DNA of 64,000 bases from Arthrobacter sp. PAMC25284 (GTDB lineage: Bacteria > Actinomycetota > Actinomycetes > Actinomycetales > Micrococcaceae). The stretch spans positions 2,666,001 to 2,730,000 of the forward strand of contig NZ_CP080382.1 of assembly GCF_019443425.1 (NCBI RefSeq), read 5' to 3'. Under the pieces are notes generated by a model that did no database searches, had not been told where the DNA came from, and was given only the letters and a program-made list of their open reading frames with translations. Both the position numbers and the translations under genes were made by a program. The stretch's first letter is position 1. Each line of letters starts with the position of its first letter. Below are positions 7,081 through 49,309 of this stretch, piece after piece.

Positions 7081-8070
7081 ATGAGCGCCGGACCTCCATC
7101 CGTACCAAAACCCTCTGTCCCGTACCGCGACACCCGCGACCTGACGCCCTTCCGCAAGACCGTGGTGCGGACGCCGGTACGCGATGCCGCCGAAGGGGTG
7201 GGTGGACTGGTCTCGGAAATTCTGGGCGCGCGGATCCGCGGCACGCTCTTTGCGGAGGGCGGTCCGCCGAGGCTTGGGAAAGTGGCCGGGAGGACGCCGG
7301 GAAAGACTGCCAAAGCGGTGCATGCCGCCATCTTCGGCAGCACCGACCCGGACCGGCTGATCGCGCTGGCGCGGGCATCCCCGGGCTGGGCCGGCCTCTG
7401 CTACGTTATGGCCGGCCTGCTGGCCTACACGCACCAGGAGCACCTGCGCGCGTCCGTGCTGTTGCAGCGTGGCCTGTCTATCAGGAACGACGACGATGCC
7501 CACCGCTATGCCGCCGAGTACCTGTCCGGTGTTGTCACCCGGGTATGGGTGGCGGAGCGGATCGAGGTTCCCGTGCTGTTCGGAGACGAAGCCATATTTC
7601 TGGCGCTGGCTCACTCGTTGCGGGAGACCGGTCAGGCGGAGGCGGCCCTGACGACGCTGGCCGGACTGCCGCCGTCGTTGCCGATGGCTTTGTCGCGTTG
7701 TTCGATTGCAGCAGAGCTGGGGCGGGACGCCGAGGTGGTCGCCGACACCGAAGGCCTGCTCAACGGCGACGACCTCTCGGCGGCGCTTCTGCTCGTGCGG
7801 GTCCGTTCGCTGCGCCGGCTCGGGCGGCTCTATGCAGCGCGGGGGGCGCTGCAGGAAGTCCTGCGCCGCCGGAAAACTGATTTCTCGCTGCGCAGCGAAG
7901 CCCTGACAGAACGCACCCTGTTATTGCTGGACAGCGGACGGCAGACGCTGAACCCGAGGGACTGGCAGCACCGGAAACCGTCGCAACAGAAGACTGTCGA
8001 GAACATCCGTAAGGACGCGGAAATGCACGAGTTGTGGGACCGGGAATACGGACGGGCCGACGACGGCTGA
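7081..8070 (+). CDS. Hypothetical protein with TPR-like helical C-terminal half
   Basis: A 329-aa cytoplasmic protein with no signal or membrane segment. The N-terminal about 80 residues are basic and proline-rich. From about 95 on, Ala/Leu/Arg-rich helices recur (LAYTHQEHLRASVLLQRGL, LLLVRVRSLRRLGRLYAARGAL) with TPR-like spacing. No enzyme motif is seen. A TAGCAT box at 7069-7074 is six bases before the ATG, implying a leaderless mRNA. I do not recognise a function. Confidence 0.7.
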   Translation: MSAGPPSVPKPSVPYRDTRDLTPFRKTVVRTPVRDAAEGVGGLVSEILGARIRGTLFAEGGPPRLGKVAGRTPGKTAKAVHAAIFGSTDPDRLIALARASPGWAGLCYVMAGLLAYTHQEHLRASVLLQRGLSIRNDDDAHRYAAEYLSGVVTRVWVAERIEVPVLFGDEAIFLALAHSLRETGQAEAALTTLAGLPPSLPMALSRCSIAAELGRDAEVVADTEGLLNGDDLSAALLLVRVRSLRRLGRLYAARGALQEVLRRRKTDFSLRSEALTERTLLLLDSGRQTLNPRDWQHRKPSQQKTVENIRKDAEMHELWDREYGRADDG

Positions 8071-8160
8071 GATCCCGGACCCGCCGTTCCCAGCTTCACC
8101 TGGCGAATACACGTAGCCGGTACCCTTGCGGGGTGCCGTGGGCGGGGGTAGAACCAAGGC

Positions 8161-38932: not shown

Positions 38933-40382
38933 ATGTCCCGTTCCGCTGTGTCCCCGGCCGACGCCATCAGCGCCCGGCTCCGGGATTTGGAGCTCCTCAC
39001 CAAAGGCCCGGCCTGGGCGTTGACCCGGTCGGCACCCTGGGTAATTGCCGTACTGCAGGCTTCCTTTACCCGGACGCGCGCCCAATTGCCGCTGGAAGAA
39101 TTCCACGCCGACGTCGACGCCTTCCTCGAACAGCTCCGCAGGGAGGACCCGGCCCTGGGCGGTTCGGCCAACGGAAAGTCCTTCGGCGACGAGTGGACGC
39201 GCAAGAACTTCCTGACCCGGCGCAACCAGTCGGGGCAGATTGTCTACGAAGTCACCGAACCCGCCGCCCGCGTCCTCGCCTTCCTGGACAGTCTCTCCAG
39301 CGAACGGTCCACGCTGAACGGTTCCCGCCTCGGCACACTGCTCGGCGACGTCGAAAAACTCGCCAATGAGACGAACCCGGACCAGAGTGCGCGGCTCGAA
39401 TCCCTTGAAGAGGAGATCGGCGAACGGCGCCAGCTGATCACGGACATCAGCTCAGGCGACTACGACGGCCTGCTCGACGACGACGAGGCCGTGGAAGCCG
39501 CCGGCAACATCCTGGACCTGGCAGCCAGCCTGCCCGCGGACTACAAGAAGATGCGTGACCGGATCGAGGAGCTTGTCGGGGAGCTCCGCAACCAGATCAT
39601 CGAGGAATCCCTCAGCAAGGGTGCCACCATGGCCCAGGTGCTGGAGGCAGACAAGCGGCTCCGGCAAAGTCCCGAGGGCCGGACTTTCCGGTCTTTCACG
39701 GCGTTCCTTGAGGACCCGCAGCAGCAGCTCAGGTTCCGGTCCGCGATCGGCGAAGTGCTCAGCCGTCAGTTCGCCGACGACCTTCGCTCCGATGAACGCG
39801 AAACGCTGAAGAACCTCGTGGCCGAGCTGCGCACCCAGCACAGCCAGATCCAGCGGATCTACGGCAGACTCAGCGAGAGCCTTAACACCTACGTCCAGAG
39901 CGACGATTTCCGCCAGTCGGTCCGGTTGCGGAAAGTGCTGCGCGAGGCCGAGCAGGCCATCCGGTCCCTGCCGTACGAGCGGGAACGCCCCGGCCTGGTC
40001 CGCGGTCCCGTCCTGTTCAACGCCGGCTTTGAATCACTGGCCATGGTGAAGCTGTTCGACCCGGACGAGTTTGCGGCGCCGCCCAAGCTGGCGGACCCCA
40101 TCGCCTTCTCCGACTCGGACCGGGGCCCGTTCGCCCCGGACCGGCAAGGCGAAGCCCGAGGCGATCCGGGCCGCGCTCGCCGGCGCCTTTTCGCTCACCG
40201 ACGCCTGGGAACAGCTGCCGGCCGGGGAACGCCACATCAACTCCATCCGGGCACTGCTCGCCGAGGCACTCCACGGCGGCGCCGGCTTCGACCGCGATGC
40301 CTGGGGTCCGGTCGACTTCGACCAAATCGACGGCTCGACCCGCACCGCGTACCTGCCCGTCGTCACGCTCAAGAAGGACTGA
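38933..40382 (+). CDS. jetA: JetA/MksF kleisin subunit, DUF3375 (frameshifted)
   Basis: Kleisin-like subunit of the Wadjet/MksBEF SMC complex; family DUF3375. About 482 aa when repaired. The N-terminal part ([34 protein letters not shown]) and the long helical middle are typical. The frame breaks at 40134-40139; dropping one G reads [18 protein letters not shown] and reaches TLKKD with stop at 40382, two bases before jetB. Unrepaired, the frame runs on through jetB as an improbable fusion. ATG start after GGAGAG. Confidence 0.88.
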
Positions 40383-40384
40383 AG

Positions 40385-41224
40385 ATGACCGATCTTTCCC
40401 CCGACGCGCAGGTTGCGCCCGCCCCGGGCGCCGCAGCCGAAGCAGCCCGACCGGCGGAACCGGACGCCCGGCCCCAGCCCGAACACGTCCGCCCCGACCC
40501 GTTCACGATCACGCCGCGGGACACGTTCGTTGATGGCGCCGCGCTCTTCCCCGGGGACACCGGTGTGCTGCCGATGAAGGTCCGCCAGGCTCTCGTGAAG
40601 CTCCTGAAAGGCCCGTACATCGATGGCGGCCGCGACGAGAAGCTCTGGACCACGCTGCTGGACAACCAGCTGATTCTCCGCAGCCGCCTCTCCGAACTGT
40701 TCCTGACGCTGCAGCTGGACCACGACCGCAAGGTTGCCGTCCTGCGTCCGGTGGATCCCGAAGCGGTCGGCGCCGGCACCCGCGCCAGCATCCTGCGCCA
40801 GCAGCGCGCCCTGAGCCGGGTCGAAACGATCGTCCTGCTCCGCCTGCGCCTGCTGCTGGACCGCCACGTCACGGCCCAGACCGACCCCACCATTACCCGT
40901 GAGGAAATCGCCGAACTGGTGGCCCACTACCAGCCGGCCGGCCAGCAGGACGCCCTCCGGGACGCCGACGTTGTCAACCGCGCCATCACCAAGCTGCTGG
41001 CCAGGCAGCTCCTCCTCGCCACGGGCCTGGATGACGTCTACACCATCTCCAACGCCCTCCCGCTGGCCCTCCCGTTCGAAAACATCGGCGACATCCCGGC
41101 CCAGATCGAGGCCCTGGTCACGGCCAGCACGGACCCGGCCGGGACCGAACCGCTGATCGAGCTCGACGCCGGCTCGCCGGCCCCAGCGGACGACGACACT
41201 GAGGAAGCGGAGGCAGCCAAGTGA
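40385..41224 (+). CDS. jetB: JetB/MksE kite-type subunit, DUF4194
   Basis: 279 aa, DUF4194. After a disordered Ala/Pro-rich 40 residues, the winged-helix core reads [39 protein letters not shown], then [17 protein letters not shown]. Binds the kleisin JetA. The start is two bases after jetA and the stop overlaps the jetC GTG by four bases (GTGA), so all three are one operon. The C-terminal acidic tail is normal. Confidence 0.92.
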
Positions 41225-44200
41225 GCATCGCAACCATGCTGCCGATGGGCGAGCTCGCGAACCCGGGACAGATGCGTCTGGCCCTCGTCCAGGTGGTCAA
41301 CTGGGGCACGTTCCACGGCGCCCACACGATGCACGTGGACCGCAGCGGAACCCTGCTGACCGGCAACTCCGGGGTCGGCAAGTCCACGCTGTTCGACGCG
41401 ATGTTGCGGGTCTTCGACGCGCGGCCGCGCTCCAACGAAGCCGCCGCGCAGCGCGCCGGCGGCGCCGTGGAAGACCGGCGGACCACGTTTACGTACATGC
41501 GCGGCAAGGTGGGGGACAAAGCCGTCGGCGAAGGCTCCGCGAGTGCGTTCCAGCGCCCGGGTGCAACCTGGTCCGCCGTCGCCCTGACATTCGACAATGC
41601 CGCCGGCACCAAAGTGACCATTTCGGCCCTCTTCGACCTGCCCAAAAACGGCACCGAATCCAGCGTCGGCCGCTTCTACCTGATCGACAACAGGCCGCTG
41701 GACCTCGCCGCGCTGGAGGGTATCGCCGAGAAACGGTTCGGCAAGGCGGCACTGGACGCGATCTTCCCCGACGCTCAGGTTTTCGACGTCCACAAGGCCT
41801 TCGCCGAACGGTTCCGCCGGCTGCTGGGCATCAACTCGGACCAGGCCCTGCCGCTGCTGCGCGTGATCCAGGCCGGCAAGGGCCTCGGCGGCAGCGTCAA
41901 CACCTTCTTCCGCGACCAGGTCCTGGACGCCCCGGCGACCCTGGCAGCCGCAGACGACGTGGTCGAGGAATTCAGCAACCTGATGTCCATCCGGCAGCGC
42001 CTCGAGGACGTCCGGCAGCAGCGCGACCAGCTGGCGCCCGTGCCCGGGCTGAATAAGGAGTACGCGCAGTCCCTGCTCGACTCGAACCGGCTGCGTGAGC
42101 TCGGCGGAGAGGAATTCGAGGCGTACAGGCAGCAGCTGGCCGTCACCGTGCACGGCAAAACCCTGGAACGCTACCGCGGACTTGCCCAGGTGAAGGCCAG
42201 GGAACTCGCAGCCGAACGCGGCGTCCGCGACGGCCTCGCCAAGGACCTGCGCGGGCTCGAAGCGGACTACAACAACCAGGGCGGCAACGCGATCTCCGCG
42301 ATCGAGCAGTCACTCGAGAACGCCCGGGTGGGGCTCAAGCTTCGCCAGCAGGTGGAGGAAGCAACCCGCACGTCGCTGGCCGACGCCGGCCTGGAACTGG
42401 ACTGGACGGCGGCCGGCTGGGCCCAGGCACACGAGCTTGCCGCCACACGGTCCGCCGAACTGCAGGACGGTTCCGAGGCGCTGAAGGAACTGCGCTTCGA
42501 GGCATTTGACGGCCACGCGACCAAGAAACGCGAACTGGCCGCGGCCCAGCAGGAACTCCTCTCGCTCAGGACGCGCAAGTCTTTGTTGCCGCCGTCGAGC
42601 ATCGAAAACCGGGCTGCAATCGCCGCGGCCACCGGCATTGCCGAGGAGCGCATGCCCTTTGGCGGTGAGCTGATCGACCTCGCCGAAGGCCAGGAACGGT
42701 GGCGGCCCGCCGCCGAGCGTGCCCTGCGGAGCCTGGCCACGACGCTGCTGGTCCCGGGCGAACACTTCGCGGCAGTCACCCGCTACCTCAATGACCACTC
42801 CGTCCGCGGCTCGCTCCGCGCCGTGGATGTGTCCAAACCGCTGCCCGGCGGCGCACTCGCGGTGGAGGACGCGGCCGACGGCGATCTGCTGACCAAGCTG
42901 AGTTTCCTGACCGACGAGGGCCACCCCTCGTCCGCCGTTGCCGAGGCCAGCGCCTGGATCCGGGAACGGATCGCCCTCGATTTCGCCTACCCGTGCGTTG
43001 AGAACCCCGACGAACTGGCCGGCCTCGACAAGGGCCTGAGCCTGGGCGGCGTGGTCAAGCGCAACCGGCACACCGTGGAGAAGGATGACCGCTTCACCGG
43101 CCGGAAGGATTACGTGCTCGGATTCGACAACGCCGCCAAGCTTGACCTCGTCGCGGCCCAGGTCGCCGATTTTGAGCAGGAACTCGCCCGGGCCGCCGAA
43201 CTCGCGCAGAACCGCGAGGAAACCCACCAGGGCATGACCCGCCAGCTTGAGGCGTTGCGCCGCGTCGCGGACGACCACCGACCCTGGGAACAGGTATCTG
43301 CCGCAGTCGCGGCGGATGAACTGGCCAGGATTGAACAACGGCTCAAAGACGCCCTCGCAGCGCAGGCGGACCTGGAACCCCTGCGGGCCAATATCGAAGG
43401 TGTCCGGCATAAGCACCAGTCCAGCACCGAAGCGGCGGCCGTGCTGCAAAGCGAGTACAGGGCCCTGGACGGACAACTCAGCGCCGCCAATGCGTTGCTG
43501 GAAGGAGCCCGCGCCCGCCTGGAGCAGACGCCGCCGTCGGACGCCACCGTCACCGCGCTGGAACCGTACTTCACTGGCTTCGACGGGGTGCAGGAGATGC
43601 ATGAACTCGATAACCTCGCCAACGCCGTCCGGACCCGGCTCCTCGCCGAGCTGCATGCGGCCGAATCGCGCGGGCAGACGACGTCGGAGCGGCTGACCCG
43701 CATTTTCGAGGGCTTCGTCCGCGAATGGGGTACCGCAATTTCCGCCGACCACGGCACCTCGATCGGCGCCGCCGGTGAGTTCGAAGCCCGCTATCACGCG
43801 ATTGTGAGCGACGGGCTTCCCGCCCAGGAGGCGGAATTCCGGCAGTTCTTCAACCAGCGCACACACGAGTCCTTCAGTACCCTGCTGCACTTGCTCGATG
43901 AGGAACGACGCACCATCACCAGCCGCATCCTCCCGCTCAACGGCATCCTGTCCGAGGTGAATTTCCACGAGGGGAGCTTCCTCGAACTGGATATCAAGCA
44001 GACCCTGCCCGCCACGGCCAAACAGTTCAAGGACGCCATCCAGAACGCCCTGAAAGTCCGGCACACGCGGCCGGGCAAGGCAGTGGTTCCGGCGACCGGG
44101 GCGGAAACGGACGACGATGTCGAGCTCACCGCCCGCTACAAATCGCTGGAAACGCTCGTGAAGCGGCTGGGTTCGCAGACCCCGGAGGACAGGCGCTGGC

Positions 44201-44694
44201 GCGCCGAGGTCCTCGATGTCCGCGGGCACCTGTTTATCCAGTGCAAGGAGCACCGTGAAGCGCCGGCGTCGAAGAAGGGCGCCCGAAAGACGGATGTCTT
44301 TATGCACGCGGACACCGGATCCATGTCCGGCGGCGAGCGGCAGCGCTTCACCGCCTTCATCATGGCCGCGGCGCTGAGCTACCAGCTGGGCATCGCCGAG
44401 CAGGGTTTCACCACATACGGCACCGTGATGATGGATGAGGCGTTTGTGCTGGCTTCGGAGGAGTTCGCCGGTGCCGGTATCAAGGCCCTGCATGAGTTCG
44501 GCTTCCAGCTGCTCCTGGCCGCTCCGGAAAACGTGATCGATCTGTCCCGCCACCTCGGCTCCGTCACGGAGATCCTGCGGGACAAACGCACCAACCGTTC
44601 CGGTGTCCTCACCTCGCCCGTCATCGGTCCGCGTCCCGGTTCCGAGGGGATATGGCGGTCCGAGGCCAACCCGGTGGACATCGTCCTCCGCTGA
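41221..44694 (+). CDS. jetC: JetC/MksB SMC-like ATPase
   Basis: 1157 aa. N-terminal ATPase lobe with Walker [10 protein letters not shown] (48-56). Long Ala/Glu/Arg-rich coiled-coil arms and a central hinge-like region around [18 protein letters not shown]-terminal lobe with ABC signature SGGERQ (from 1036) and Walker B TVMMDE (Asp1072, Glu1073). In Wadjet, JetABC extrudes DNA loops and JetD nicks/cleaves small plasmids; the MksBEF/MukBEF relatives organise chromosomes. ATPase motifs are complete, so this subunit should be active. No jetD (DUF3322/DUF2220) follows; next is an SGNH hydrolase 78 bases on. Confidence 0.93.
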
Positions 44695-44704
44695 CCCCGC
44701 GTTG
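44692..44704. repeat. REP-like half site at the jetC stop
   Basis: TGACCCCGCGTTG, identical to the right arm of copy 3. Its first three bases are the jetC stop codon. No left arm is present within 100 bases. Confidence 0.8.
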
Positions 44705-44772
44705 CCGCCGGATTTTCCGTGTGTTAACCCCGCCGTTCCCCGCCCGCCGGATGACGCGGCTAGCGTGGGCGC

Positions 44773-45609
44773 GTGACTGGAAACTTTCTTAGTGCGGGCC
44801 AGGGCGGCCGGCGGCTGTTTGTTGCTCTCGGAGATTCCTTCACCGAAGGGGTCGGGGACCGCGACCCGCGGCTGCCCAACGGGGTAAGGGGCTGGGCAGA
44901 CCGTGTCGCGGAAAGGCTGGCCAAGGCGGAGCCGGGCTGGGAATACGCCAACCTCGCCATCCGCAGCAAGAGGCTGCGGCACATCGTCGCCGAACAGCTG
45001 CAACCGGCCGTGGCCATGGAACCGTCGCTCGTTAGCCTGTACGCAGGCGGGAACGACATCCTGGACGCCGGCACCGATATCGACGCCCTGATGAGGGACT
45101 ACGAGGTGCTCGTGGCCAAGCTGTCCGAGTCCGGGGCAACCCTGGTGCTCTTCACAGGCTTCGACGTCAAAGTGTCTGCGGTGCTGGAACCCCTTAAACG
45201 CCGCAATGCGATTTACAATCAACGCGTGCGTGAGATAGCGGCCCGGTATGAGGCCGTGCTGGTCGATTATTGGTGCTTTGACGCACTCCACGATCCGCGG
45301 ATGTGGGATTCGGACCGTTTGCACATGTCCAAGGCCGGCCACAAGTATCTTGCTGGGCAAGTCCTGAACCAGCTCGGCGTGTCGCATTCGCTCAAGCCCG
45401 CGAACTGGCCCGAACCCGTCAAGACGGGCCTCCGGGGCAGGGCACGCCAACAATGGCGGTGGCTGCAGGACTGGGTGCTGCCCCTATGTGGCCGCAAGCT
45501 CCGCGGCGTCACTCTGGGGGATGACTTGGCTCCGCGCTGGCCCGCTCCCGTTGTGGTCCCGCGGAAGGGCGGACTCAAGAAACTGGCCGCCGGAGTGCGT
45601 GCGGGCTGA
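44773..45609 (+). CDS. SGNH/GDSL hydrolase, first paralogue
   Basis: A 278-aa esterase/lipase-fold enzyme without a signal peptide. Block I VALGDSFTEGVGD (Ser nucleophile), block III AGGNDI, block V DRLHMSKAGH (Asp-x-x-His) are all intact. It is clearly paralogous to the gene at 48548 (shared ALGDSFTEGVGD, PNGVRGWADRVAE, YANLAIR). The C-terminal 80 residues are basic. TAGCGT (44761-44766) lies six bases before the GTG, so the mRNA is probably leaderless. Confidence 0.92.
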   Translation: MTGNFLSAGQGGRRLFVALGDSFTEGVGDRDPRLPNGVRGWADRVAERLAKAEPGWEYANLAIRSKRLRHIVAEQLQPAVAMEPSLVSLYAGGNDILDAGTDIDALMRDYEVLVAKLSESGATLVLFTGFDVKVSAVLEPLKRRNAIYNQRVREIAARYEAVLVDYWCFDALHDPRMWDSDRLHMSKAGHKYLAGQVLNQLGVSHSLKPANWPEPVKTGLRGRARQQWRWLQDWVLPLCGRKLRGVTLGDDLAPRWPAPVVVPRKGGLKKLAAGVRAG

Positions 45610-48408: not shown

Positions 48409-48495
48409 GCGGGGCATGTCCGGGACCCCCGCTCCCGCGCTCCGCTCCCGCACCCCGCTCCCGCACCCCGGCCCTGGGTCCCGGACATGCCCCGC
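48409..48495. repeat. 20-bp perfect inverted repeat with repetitive loop
   Basis: Arms 48409-48428 and 48476-48495 are exact complements (gcggggcatgtccgggaccc). The 47-base loop repeats gctcccgcacccc about two and a half times. It sits between the glutaminase stop and the next SGNH gene and could act as a terminator without a U tract or be a mobile palindrome. Confidence 0.85.
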
Positions 48496-48547
48496 GGCTG
48501 CGCCCGGCGCTTGGTTGCCCGCGGCAACTGCTGGCACACTGGGACCT

Positions 48548-49309
48548 ATGGAATTCACGTCCCGCTATGTCGCACTGGGAGACTCCTTCACGGAAGGGGT
48601 CGGCGATGATGATCCTGCCCGCCCCAACGGAGTCCGCGGCTGGGCGGACCGCGTTGCCGAGCAGCTCGGCGCGGCCAACCCGTCCTTTGGCTACGCCAAC
48701 CTCGCGATCCGTGGACGTAAACTCCGCCAGATCATGGCCGAACAGGTCGACGCCGCCATCGCCCTGAACCCCACGCTGGTGACCATCTATGCCGGCGCCA
48801 ACGACATCATGCGGCCTAAGGTGGATATCGACAACCTGTTGGTGGACTACGACTCCGGCATCCGTAAGCTCAAGGCCACCGGCGCCACCGTGATGATGTT
48901 CACCGGCTTCGACGCCCGTGGATCCAAGGTCTTCAGCACCATGCGGGGCCGCACCGCGATCTACAACGAACTGGTCCGCGGCATTGCGGGGGACCACGGG
49001 GTGCTGCTGGTGGACTACTGGCGCTTCAGTGAGTACTACGACTGGGGCATGTGGGCTACGGACCGGATGCATATGTCCGCCGCGGGTCACGCGAACATGG
49101 CCAAGCGGGTACTCACTGTCCTGGAACACGACCACTCAATCGACATCCCGCCCATGACACCAGTCCCGGAGTTGAGCCGGACTGAGGCGATCCGTGCCAA
49201 CGCCCGCTGGGTGCGCGAATTCGCGGGGCCCTGGGTTGTCCGGCGCGTCACGGGCAGGTCCTCCGGCGATGGCCTCCTGCCGCGCTACAGCGGGCTCACC
49301 CACCTCTGA
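48548..49309 (+). CDS. SGNH/GDSL hydrolase, second paralogue
   Basis: 253 aa, paralogue of the 44773 enzyme. Ser in VALGDSFTEGVGDDDP, Asn in AGANDI, Asp/His in TDRMHMSAAGH. No signal peptide. The two copies share block order and the linker FTGFDxxxSxVxxxxxxRxAIYN, but differ in the C-terminal 70 residues. No strong -10 box; CACACT at 48535 is the best candidate. Confidence 0.92.
   Translation: MEFTSRYVALGDSFTEGVGDDDPARPNGVRGWADRVAEQLGAANPSFGYANLAIRGRKLRQIMAEQVDAAIALNPTLVTIYAGANDIMRPKVDIDNLLVDYDSGIRKLKATGATVMMFTGFDARGSKVFSTMRGRTAIYNELVRGIAGDHGVLLVDYWRFSEYYDWGMWATDRMHMSAAGHANMAKRVLTVLEHDHSIDIPPMTPVPELSRTEAIRANARWVREFAGPWVVRRVTGRSSGDGLLPRYSGLTHL

Follow-up and report, generated by a model that had tools for sequence, protein, structure and literature searches.

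A widely conserved jetABC locus without the JetD nuclease gene in Arthrobacter and related genera, a probable second condensin

The jetABC locus

We analyzed a stretch of 64,000 nucleotides from Arthrobacter sp. PAMC25284 (contig NZ_CP080382.1, positions 2,666,001 to 2,730,000; hereafter the window, with coordinates numbered from its first nucleotide), in which the genes jetA, jetB and jetC encode the three core subunits of a structural maintenance of chromosomes (SMC) complex of the Wadjet/MksBEF kind. In Wadjet, JetABC serves as the sensor and the motor, and JetD is the nuclease that cuts (PMC10586767, PMC10123090). No jetD gene was found beside the three genes or elsewhere in the genome, and this arrangement is near-universal in the genus and common to 11 genera, which suggests that the complex probably serves as a second condensin.

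All three genes are located on the forward strand in the order A-B-C. The N-terminal part of jetA, which encodes an MksF-like kleisin (DUF3375), covers positions 38933-40129 (about 398 codons; PF11855, E 2.7e-79) and is 85-97% identical in 20 relatives, and the C-terminal part of the gene, of about 84 amino acids plus the stop codon, is read in another frame at positions 40128-40382 and matches positions 393-482 of the 484 in the PADLOC JetA1 profile (E 5.2e-30). Taken as a whole, the jetA span (38933-40384) scores 730 bits with JetA1 (PDLC00447). It is followed by jetB (40385-41224), which encodes an MksE-like KITE subunit (DUF4194) of 279 amino acids if the start is taken as the ATG at 40385 (PF13835, E 1.9e-29; PADLOC JetB1 PDLC00476, 510 bits). 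The third gene, jetC (41221-44694), starts with a GTG at 41221 that overlaps the jetB stop codon, and encodes an MksB-like SMC ATPase of 1157 amino acids (PADLOC JetC1 PDLC00518, 1140 bits). The place of jetD in a JetABCD operon is taken here by a gap of 78 bases (44695-44772), after which comes a gene for an SGNH/GDSL hydrolase (44773-45609, forward strand; PF13472, E 6.4e-27) that stands outside the system. The original prediction, which was made from the nucleotide sequence of the window, had described this short interval and the unrelated hydrolase correctly; its statement that the three genes are coupled in the standard order agrees with the Pfam and PADLOC matches, but it had overlooked the frame break in jetA.

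Also in agreement with the original prediction, the ATPase motifs of JetC are intact. The Walker A, signature and Walker B motifs are all present, the latter as VMMDEAF, and the protein matches the Pfam profiles for the P-loop and the SbcC-type Walker B domain. We compared the locus with homologous loci in a set of 101, made up of the 80 best-matching of 153 records, 20 further genomes and the window, with some genomes represented twice. The Walker A and B strings are unchanged in 99 of the 101 loci. The solved chains closest in sequence to JetC are the Wadjet JetC proteins 8dk2_C and 8as8_A, and those closest to JetA are the JetA chains 8q72_E and 8dk1_A, while JetB gave no solved-structure match at E 0.1. 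JetB scored 102.9 bits with DUF4194 and 24.4 bits with the MksE model PF21980, which is below the cut-off of 27 bits.

Frame break in jetA and assembly quality

The jetA gene is split over two frames near position 40,128, with the residues up to about 398 in the frame that starts at 38933 and the last 84 or so, which correspond to the conserved C-terminal part of JetA, in the frame that ends at 40382. By chance, the N-terminal frame contains no stop codon until the end of jetB, and the list of open reading frames thus shows one mechanical frame of 763 amino acids (38933-41224), which hid the break. A frame test on the window against three relatives identified shifts in 2 of 12, 1 of 9 and 0 of 10 genes; jetA was flagged against the first two (together with one spurious-looking match), and was missed by the overlap rule against the third, for which the alignment shows the same frame change.

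Other genes of the assembly carry the same fault. In the origin region (2554000-2572000 of the assembly), 3 of the 10 aligned genes shift frame, namely dnaA, gyrB and gyrA, the last of these twice, as compared to 0 of 12, 0 of 12 and 0 of 11 genes in the same test on three relatives; no shifts were identified among 12 genes in the smc region of the PAMC25284 assembly. The dnaA frame is 300 codons long in this genome and 472-502 codons long in the other 33 genomes. The three genes, which would all be expected to have essential functions, were named by Pfam matches to their intact copies. Since genes expected to be essential are also broken in this assembly, the break in jetA is probably an assembly error that stems from uncorrected single-base errors, and a real pseudogene was rejected as the likely reading. 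The assembly thus seems to carry single-base errors, and frame breaks in the window should be checked before they are given a biological interpretation.

The frame change could also be taken as the sign of a decaying remnant, in which the nuclease was lost and the strain now carries a broken jetA. Besides the same kind of change in dnaA, gyrB and gyrA, this reading has to accommodate a JetA that is continuous in 99 of the 101 loci and median ratios of nonsynonymous to synonymous divergence (dN/dS) of 0.05-0.10 for JetA (N-terminal part), JetB and JetC, and we consider it very improbable. The two exceptions with a broken jetA are the window and locus L070 (genome G103), where jetA is interrupted at positions 7850-8160 beside a piece that resembles jetC. 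This is an apparent adaptor or chimera artefact of the assembly, with an insert that we take to be translated sequencing-adaptor sequence.

Search for the JetD nuclease

The genome of PAMC25284, which is assembled into a single contig of 3,883,676 bases and contains a single JetC, was searched in six frames with profiles for both JetD domains, as the original prediction had proposed. Neither JetD_C (PF09983) nor DUF3322 (PF11795) gave any match across the whole contig, while the positive control, Corynebacterium glutamicum, was matched in both searches. The absence of jetD beside jetC, as noted originally, was thereby borne out at the locus and extended to the whole genome. Since the searches read through stop codons, according to the description of the tool, a frame-broken JetD should still have appeared, and we rejected the idea of a nuclease that is located elsewhere in this genome or masked by frame errors, the former being one of the options offered in the original prediction.

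Distribution in the genus and the family

Of 150 genomes from the genus, 149 gave a JetC match, as did all 141 with at least 90% completeness and at most 5% contamination. Among the full-length places listed, identity was 80-91%. JetD_C was identified at 78 places in 66 of the 150 genomes. None of these places is within 10 kb of the core JetC, that is, the JetC of the type found in the window; 33 of them share a contig with it, the nearest at a distance of 955 kb. All 20 JetD loci that were fetched from the genus have a second, distantly related JetC beside JetD.

In a sample of 197 genomes of the family, the JetC places fell into two groups by score (the second pieces of two split jetC genes were left out): 87 places at 500 bits or more, which we refer to as the core clade, and 51 places at less than 400 bits. 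The core-clade places have 39-100% identity and are distributed over 11 genera by our count, and JetD_C was not found within 10 kb of any of them, the nearest on the same contig being 271 kb away. As for the other group, JetD_C is located within 10 kb of JetC at 46 of the 51 places. Any JetC match at all was found in 111 of the 197 genomes and in 22 of the 32 genera, and the complex is thus not present in every genus. Distant JetC proteins (30-32% identity) were also identified in genomes with no JetD_C match, four of them from a single genus (g101; G447, G467, G486, G507) and one further genome (G556), which are perhaps additional nuclease-less lineages.

This comparison with related genomes, which the original prediction had called for, bears directly on its suggestion that the nuclease was lost. 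The gene is indeed missing, but a recent or local loss is not supported, since jetABC without jetD is near-universal in the genus and common to 11 genera; a long-stable layout of this kind in relatives had itself been named as a finding that would count against loss. It could still be argued that JetABC borrows its nuclease in trans from an accessory JetABCD locus, as 29 of the 87 core loci are in genomes that also hold JetD. The remaining 58 are in genomes without JetD, 46 of the 53 JetD places in the family sample have their own JetC within 10 kb, and in PAMC25284 the explanation is refuted as far as the searches reach. Overall, we regard it as extremely improbable.

Chromosomal position and evolutionary constraint

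All 26 single-contig genomes in which the distance was measured have the locus upstream of dnaA, on the other strand, at a distance of 139-421 kb with a median of 206 kb (8 of the 34 such genomes were left out because of an inexact length or a partial JetC). We compared the rate of evolution of the locus to that of SMC, the sole yardstick gene, across nine genomes. The mean protein distance among them was 0.102 for the core JetC as compared to 0.178 for SMC, with JetC being closer than SMC in all 36 genome pairs, and the two sets of distances are correlated (Mantel r 0.774; 0 of 20000 permutations as high). The median dN/dS values were 0.088 for JetC, 0.050 for JetA (N-terminal part), 0.097 for JetB and 0.130 for SMC, all of which are rough since the synonymous distances are near saturation (median dS 0.54-1.01). 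For the accessory JetC proteins located beside JetD, dN/dS was 0.136-0.239 in the 6 pairs of 4 genomes, and these proteins are further apart than SMC in 4 of the 6 pairs. The locus is thus inherited in a housekeeping-like manner: it is fixed in position, tracks SMC by vertical descent and is constrained. Because SMC itself (SMC_prok_B, over the cut-off) was identified in PAMC25284 and in 8 of 8 relatives searched, jetABC is an addition to SMC rather than a substitute for it.

These patterns are relevant to the idea that the complex is still a defence system that does not cut. JetABC would then recognize small circular DNA by total extrusion and restrain it through compaction, silencing or mis-segregation. 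The motor parts are intact, the solved structures closest to them in sequence are those of Wadjet JetC and JetA, and a review has put forward a possible route to restriction in which an SMC complex compacts circular DNA (PMC10586767). A near-universal locus that is fixed near the origin and evolves more slowly than SMC is nevertheless unlike the patchy accessory JetABCD (with JetD in 66 of 150 genomes), and we find defence of this type unlikely.

Genes surrounding the locus

Another option in the original prediction was that a different effector has replaced JetD. Open reading frames were selected by length and third-position G+C content from stretches of about 17-26 kb and compared with BLAST at E 1e-8, which identified no fourth gene common to the locus in a consistent place across six genera and a second family of the order (f11). 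JetC and JetA/JetB were the only families common to all seven groups. Among the other shared families, one was found in 4 groups (ABC-ATPase-like), one in 3 and three in 2, the SGNH hydrolase being among the latter (g1, g10), and their places differ. The genes upstream of jetA vary by genus, and those downstream are mixed in the 20 relatives. A replacement effector at the locus was thus rejected.

Within the 20 relatives, an upstream gene that we take to be acyl-CoA-dehydrogenase-like is kept in 18. The SGNH hydrolase gene is 0.9-6.8 kb from jetC in 9 relatives (at least 70% identity) and was not found in the fetched stretch of the other 11. The interval between jetC and this gene is a variable spot in the relatives (L061-L080), with mixed cargo that presumably includes genes for iron-siderophore uptake, an MFS transporter with a TetR regulator and others; it is empty in the window (44695-44772). 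The window also contains a second, related SGNH/GDSL hydrolase gene (48416-49309), and both are located near the locus in several relatives. The genes between the two are, as we assume from their resemblance, YciI-like, MarR-like and glutaminase-like.

JetABC could alternatively be partnered by another host enzyme, such as a topoisomerase or a nuclease encoded elsewhere, that acts in the place of JetD. Such partners need not be encoded locally, as illustrated by the recruitment of topoisomerase IV by MukBEF in E. coli (PMC3950513). No fourth gene is common to the locus across genera, and nothing like the gene annotated as RecB upstream of one plasmid-borne copy adjoins jetA in 11 loci, as judged from first residues and orientation with no profile search made. 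We consider such a partner to be quite unlikely. The copy in question (L266) is on a 754 kb replicon of Arthrobacter sp. ERGS1:01 that is labelled as a plasmid (NZ_CP012477.1); it contains jetABC with a JetC that is 42% identical, no jetD is annotated in its 15.3-kb stretch, and the upstream gene is annotated as a RecB nuclease/helicase. A JetC with 85.5% identity was identified on another so-called plasmid, of 1.35 Mb (NZ_AP024648.1). Both replicons may be secondary chromosomes or mislabelled.

Phylogeny of JetC

A first JetC tree was inferred from 67 of 81 proteins, after 13 closely related rows of the genus and one truncated row had been dropped. In this tree, in which several long branches meet according to a warning from the tool, the core clade forms one supported group, all without JetD, and a second group without JetD corresponds to the separate family f11 of the same order. 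The well-supported branches force at least five changes of the JetD label. When 31 rows were analyzed under a mixture model, all 7 core-clade proteins formed one side of a fully supported branch, and all 4 f11 proteins formed one side of another. A single clade of the two was rejected (p-AU 0.015), which is moderate evidence as the 31 rows were picked by hand and the group was named after the first tree had been seen.

The direction of these changes is not shown by the tree alone. JetD is a part of Wadjet in distant bacteria, and because copies of JetC that are associated with jetD are located on both sides of each group without it, loss of JetD is the simpler reading than gain.

The f11 loci (L138-L147) represent a second nuclease-less JetABC lineage. 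In L144 and L145, other genes spanning 2.6-3.8 kb are located between jetA and jetB, and in L144, jetB is about 1.15 kb from jetC. No jetA was found within the fetched stretch in 7 of the 10 f11 loci, and in 3 of these no jetB was found either.

We also compared group-specific residues in JetA, JetB and JetC. Many of the positions that are conserved among JetD-linked copies are changed in the core clade, while f11 mostly keeps them, a comparison in which relatedness is uncontrolled. The JetD-docking motif "IFDR" of JetB (PMC10586767), searched for with a loose pattern up to 60 residues before the start of DUF4194, was recovered from 0 of 37 JetD-linked and 0 of 41 unlinked proteins, and this comparison is thus uninformative.

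Proposed role of JetABC

Taken together, these results suggest that jetABC probably encodes a Wadjet-derived, nuclease-less second condensin of the MksBEF type, with a housekeeping role beside SMC. Of the options in the original prediction, a condensin-like MksBEF fits best, with a change of function that is deduced from sequence. According to the proposed mechanism, the three-subunit complex, with JetC as the ATPase, JetA as the kleisin and JetB as the KITE subunit, would have descended from a type I Wadjet-like ancestor and become fixed without JetD. It would load on DNA, extrude loops of the chromosome or hold them with the use of ATP, as predicted from loop extrusion in the family, and release the DNA without cutting, such that plasmid cleavage would be absent. 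The prediction that it acts without cutting follows from the finding that JetD, the cutter in Wadjet, was not found. The most likely substrate would be the chromosome, because the complex is near-universal, has a fixed place close to the origin and is under stronger constraint than SMC.

Several observations weigh against this interpretation. The jetA gene is broken in the assembly of PAMC25284 and may be broken in the strain itself. A nuclease might be shared in the core loci that co-occur with JetD in the same genome. Partial or split JetC was recorded in 7 genomes of the genus among the places listed (one of them at a contig end), and JetC is split in 2 of the 101 loci, which is why an occasional real loss of JetC is possible. 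The rate comparison rests on rough dN/dS values and one yardstick gene, and part of the slowness of JetC may stem from its origin-near place, since the median dS is also lower for JetC than for SMC (0.69 vs. 1.01), as it is for JetA and JetB. Loss of a docking site for JetD was looked for in the JetB motif and the group-specific residues, and was not demonstrable in either. Finally, nucleoid architecture was not obviously affected by the Mks complex of C. glutamicum, which has MksG (PMC7083940).

A broader scenario, to which we give about an even chance, is that of a domesticated plasmid-restriction motor. The ancestor of at least 11 genera would have kept the motor without its nuclease as a housekeeping organizer, under tighter constraint than SMC, while mobile, nuclease-bearing Wadjets came and went in the same genomes; the second family of the order would have taken this path separately, with jetA moving away from jetB and jetC. 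If the housekeeping role holds true, these bacteria offer a natural comparison, often within one cell, between SMC motors of one type that have a nuclease and those that lack it. It would then become testable how a DNA-measuring defence motor lives on a chromosome, and whether, as suggested previously (PMC10586767), chromosome condensins of the MksBEF/MukBEF type have their origin in defence systems.

Comparison with known systems

The complex resembles type I Wadjet (JetABCD/MksBEFG) in its JetA (DUF3375), JetB (DUF4194) and JetC families, its A-B-C gene order, its ATPase motifs, its high scores with the PADLOC JetA1, JetB1 and JetC1 profiles (730, 510 and 1140 bits), and its nearest solved chains. 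It differs in that JetD was found neither beside jetC nor in the genome. The accessory JetABCD systems of the genus are patchy, whereas the jetABC locus studied here is near-universal, fixed and slowly evolving.

A nuclease-less MksBEF is in itself an already known kind of complex. MksBEF of Pseudomonas aeruginosa, which takes part in chromosome organization and segregation (PMC7485682), likewise has three subunits, lacks a nuclease and coexists with SMC, but the JetB protein described here fits DUF4194 far better than the MksE model, for which it falls under the cut-off. The lineage described here looks separate from that of Pseudomonas, although the trees contain proteins from one order and the Pseudomonas protein is not among them. 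In Borrelia, where MksB occurs in the absence of MksE and MksF, it functions chiefly within the chromosome (PMC10406323). The MksBEFG system of C. glutamicum is also an actinobacterial Mks complex with the same subunit families, but it has MksG and acts on plasmids (PMC7083940, PMC10123090).

Our literature search for exact phrases on a Wadjet lacking JetD identified one review (PMC10586767), and there was no report of MksB or MksBEF in Micrococcaceae among the matches listed. A parallel case is Paenarthrobacter lasiusi S21, for which PADLOC listed a "Wadjet" consisting of JetA, JetB and JetC and, separately, a full type I system (Table 6, PMC11719660). The three-gene system is given there as a defence system only, and neither the missing nuclease nor its conservation is discussed in the available part of that article. 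Wadjet has been reported in 42% of Actinobacteria genomes (PMC10482375). Genes of this kind have thus been reported under the name "Wadjet" by a tool for finding defence systems (PMC11719660), and 87 of the 138 JetC places in our family sample belong to a clade without an adjacent nuclease, so that surveys may overcount Wadjet in these bacteria. As far as the literature was searched, what is new is a nuclease-less branch, present in 11 genera, that is near-universal, evolves slowly and has the subunits of type I Wadjet, together with a second such branch in another family of the order.

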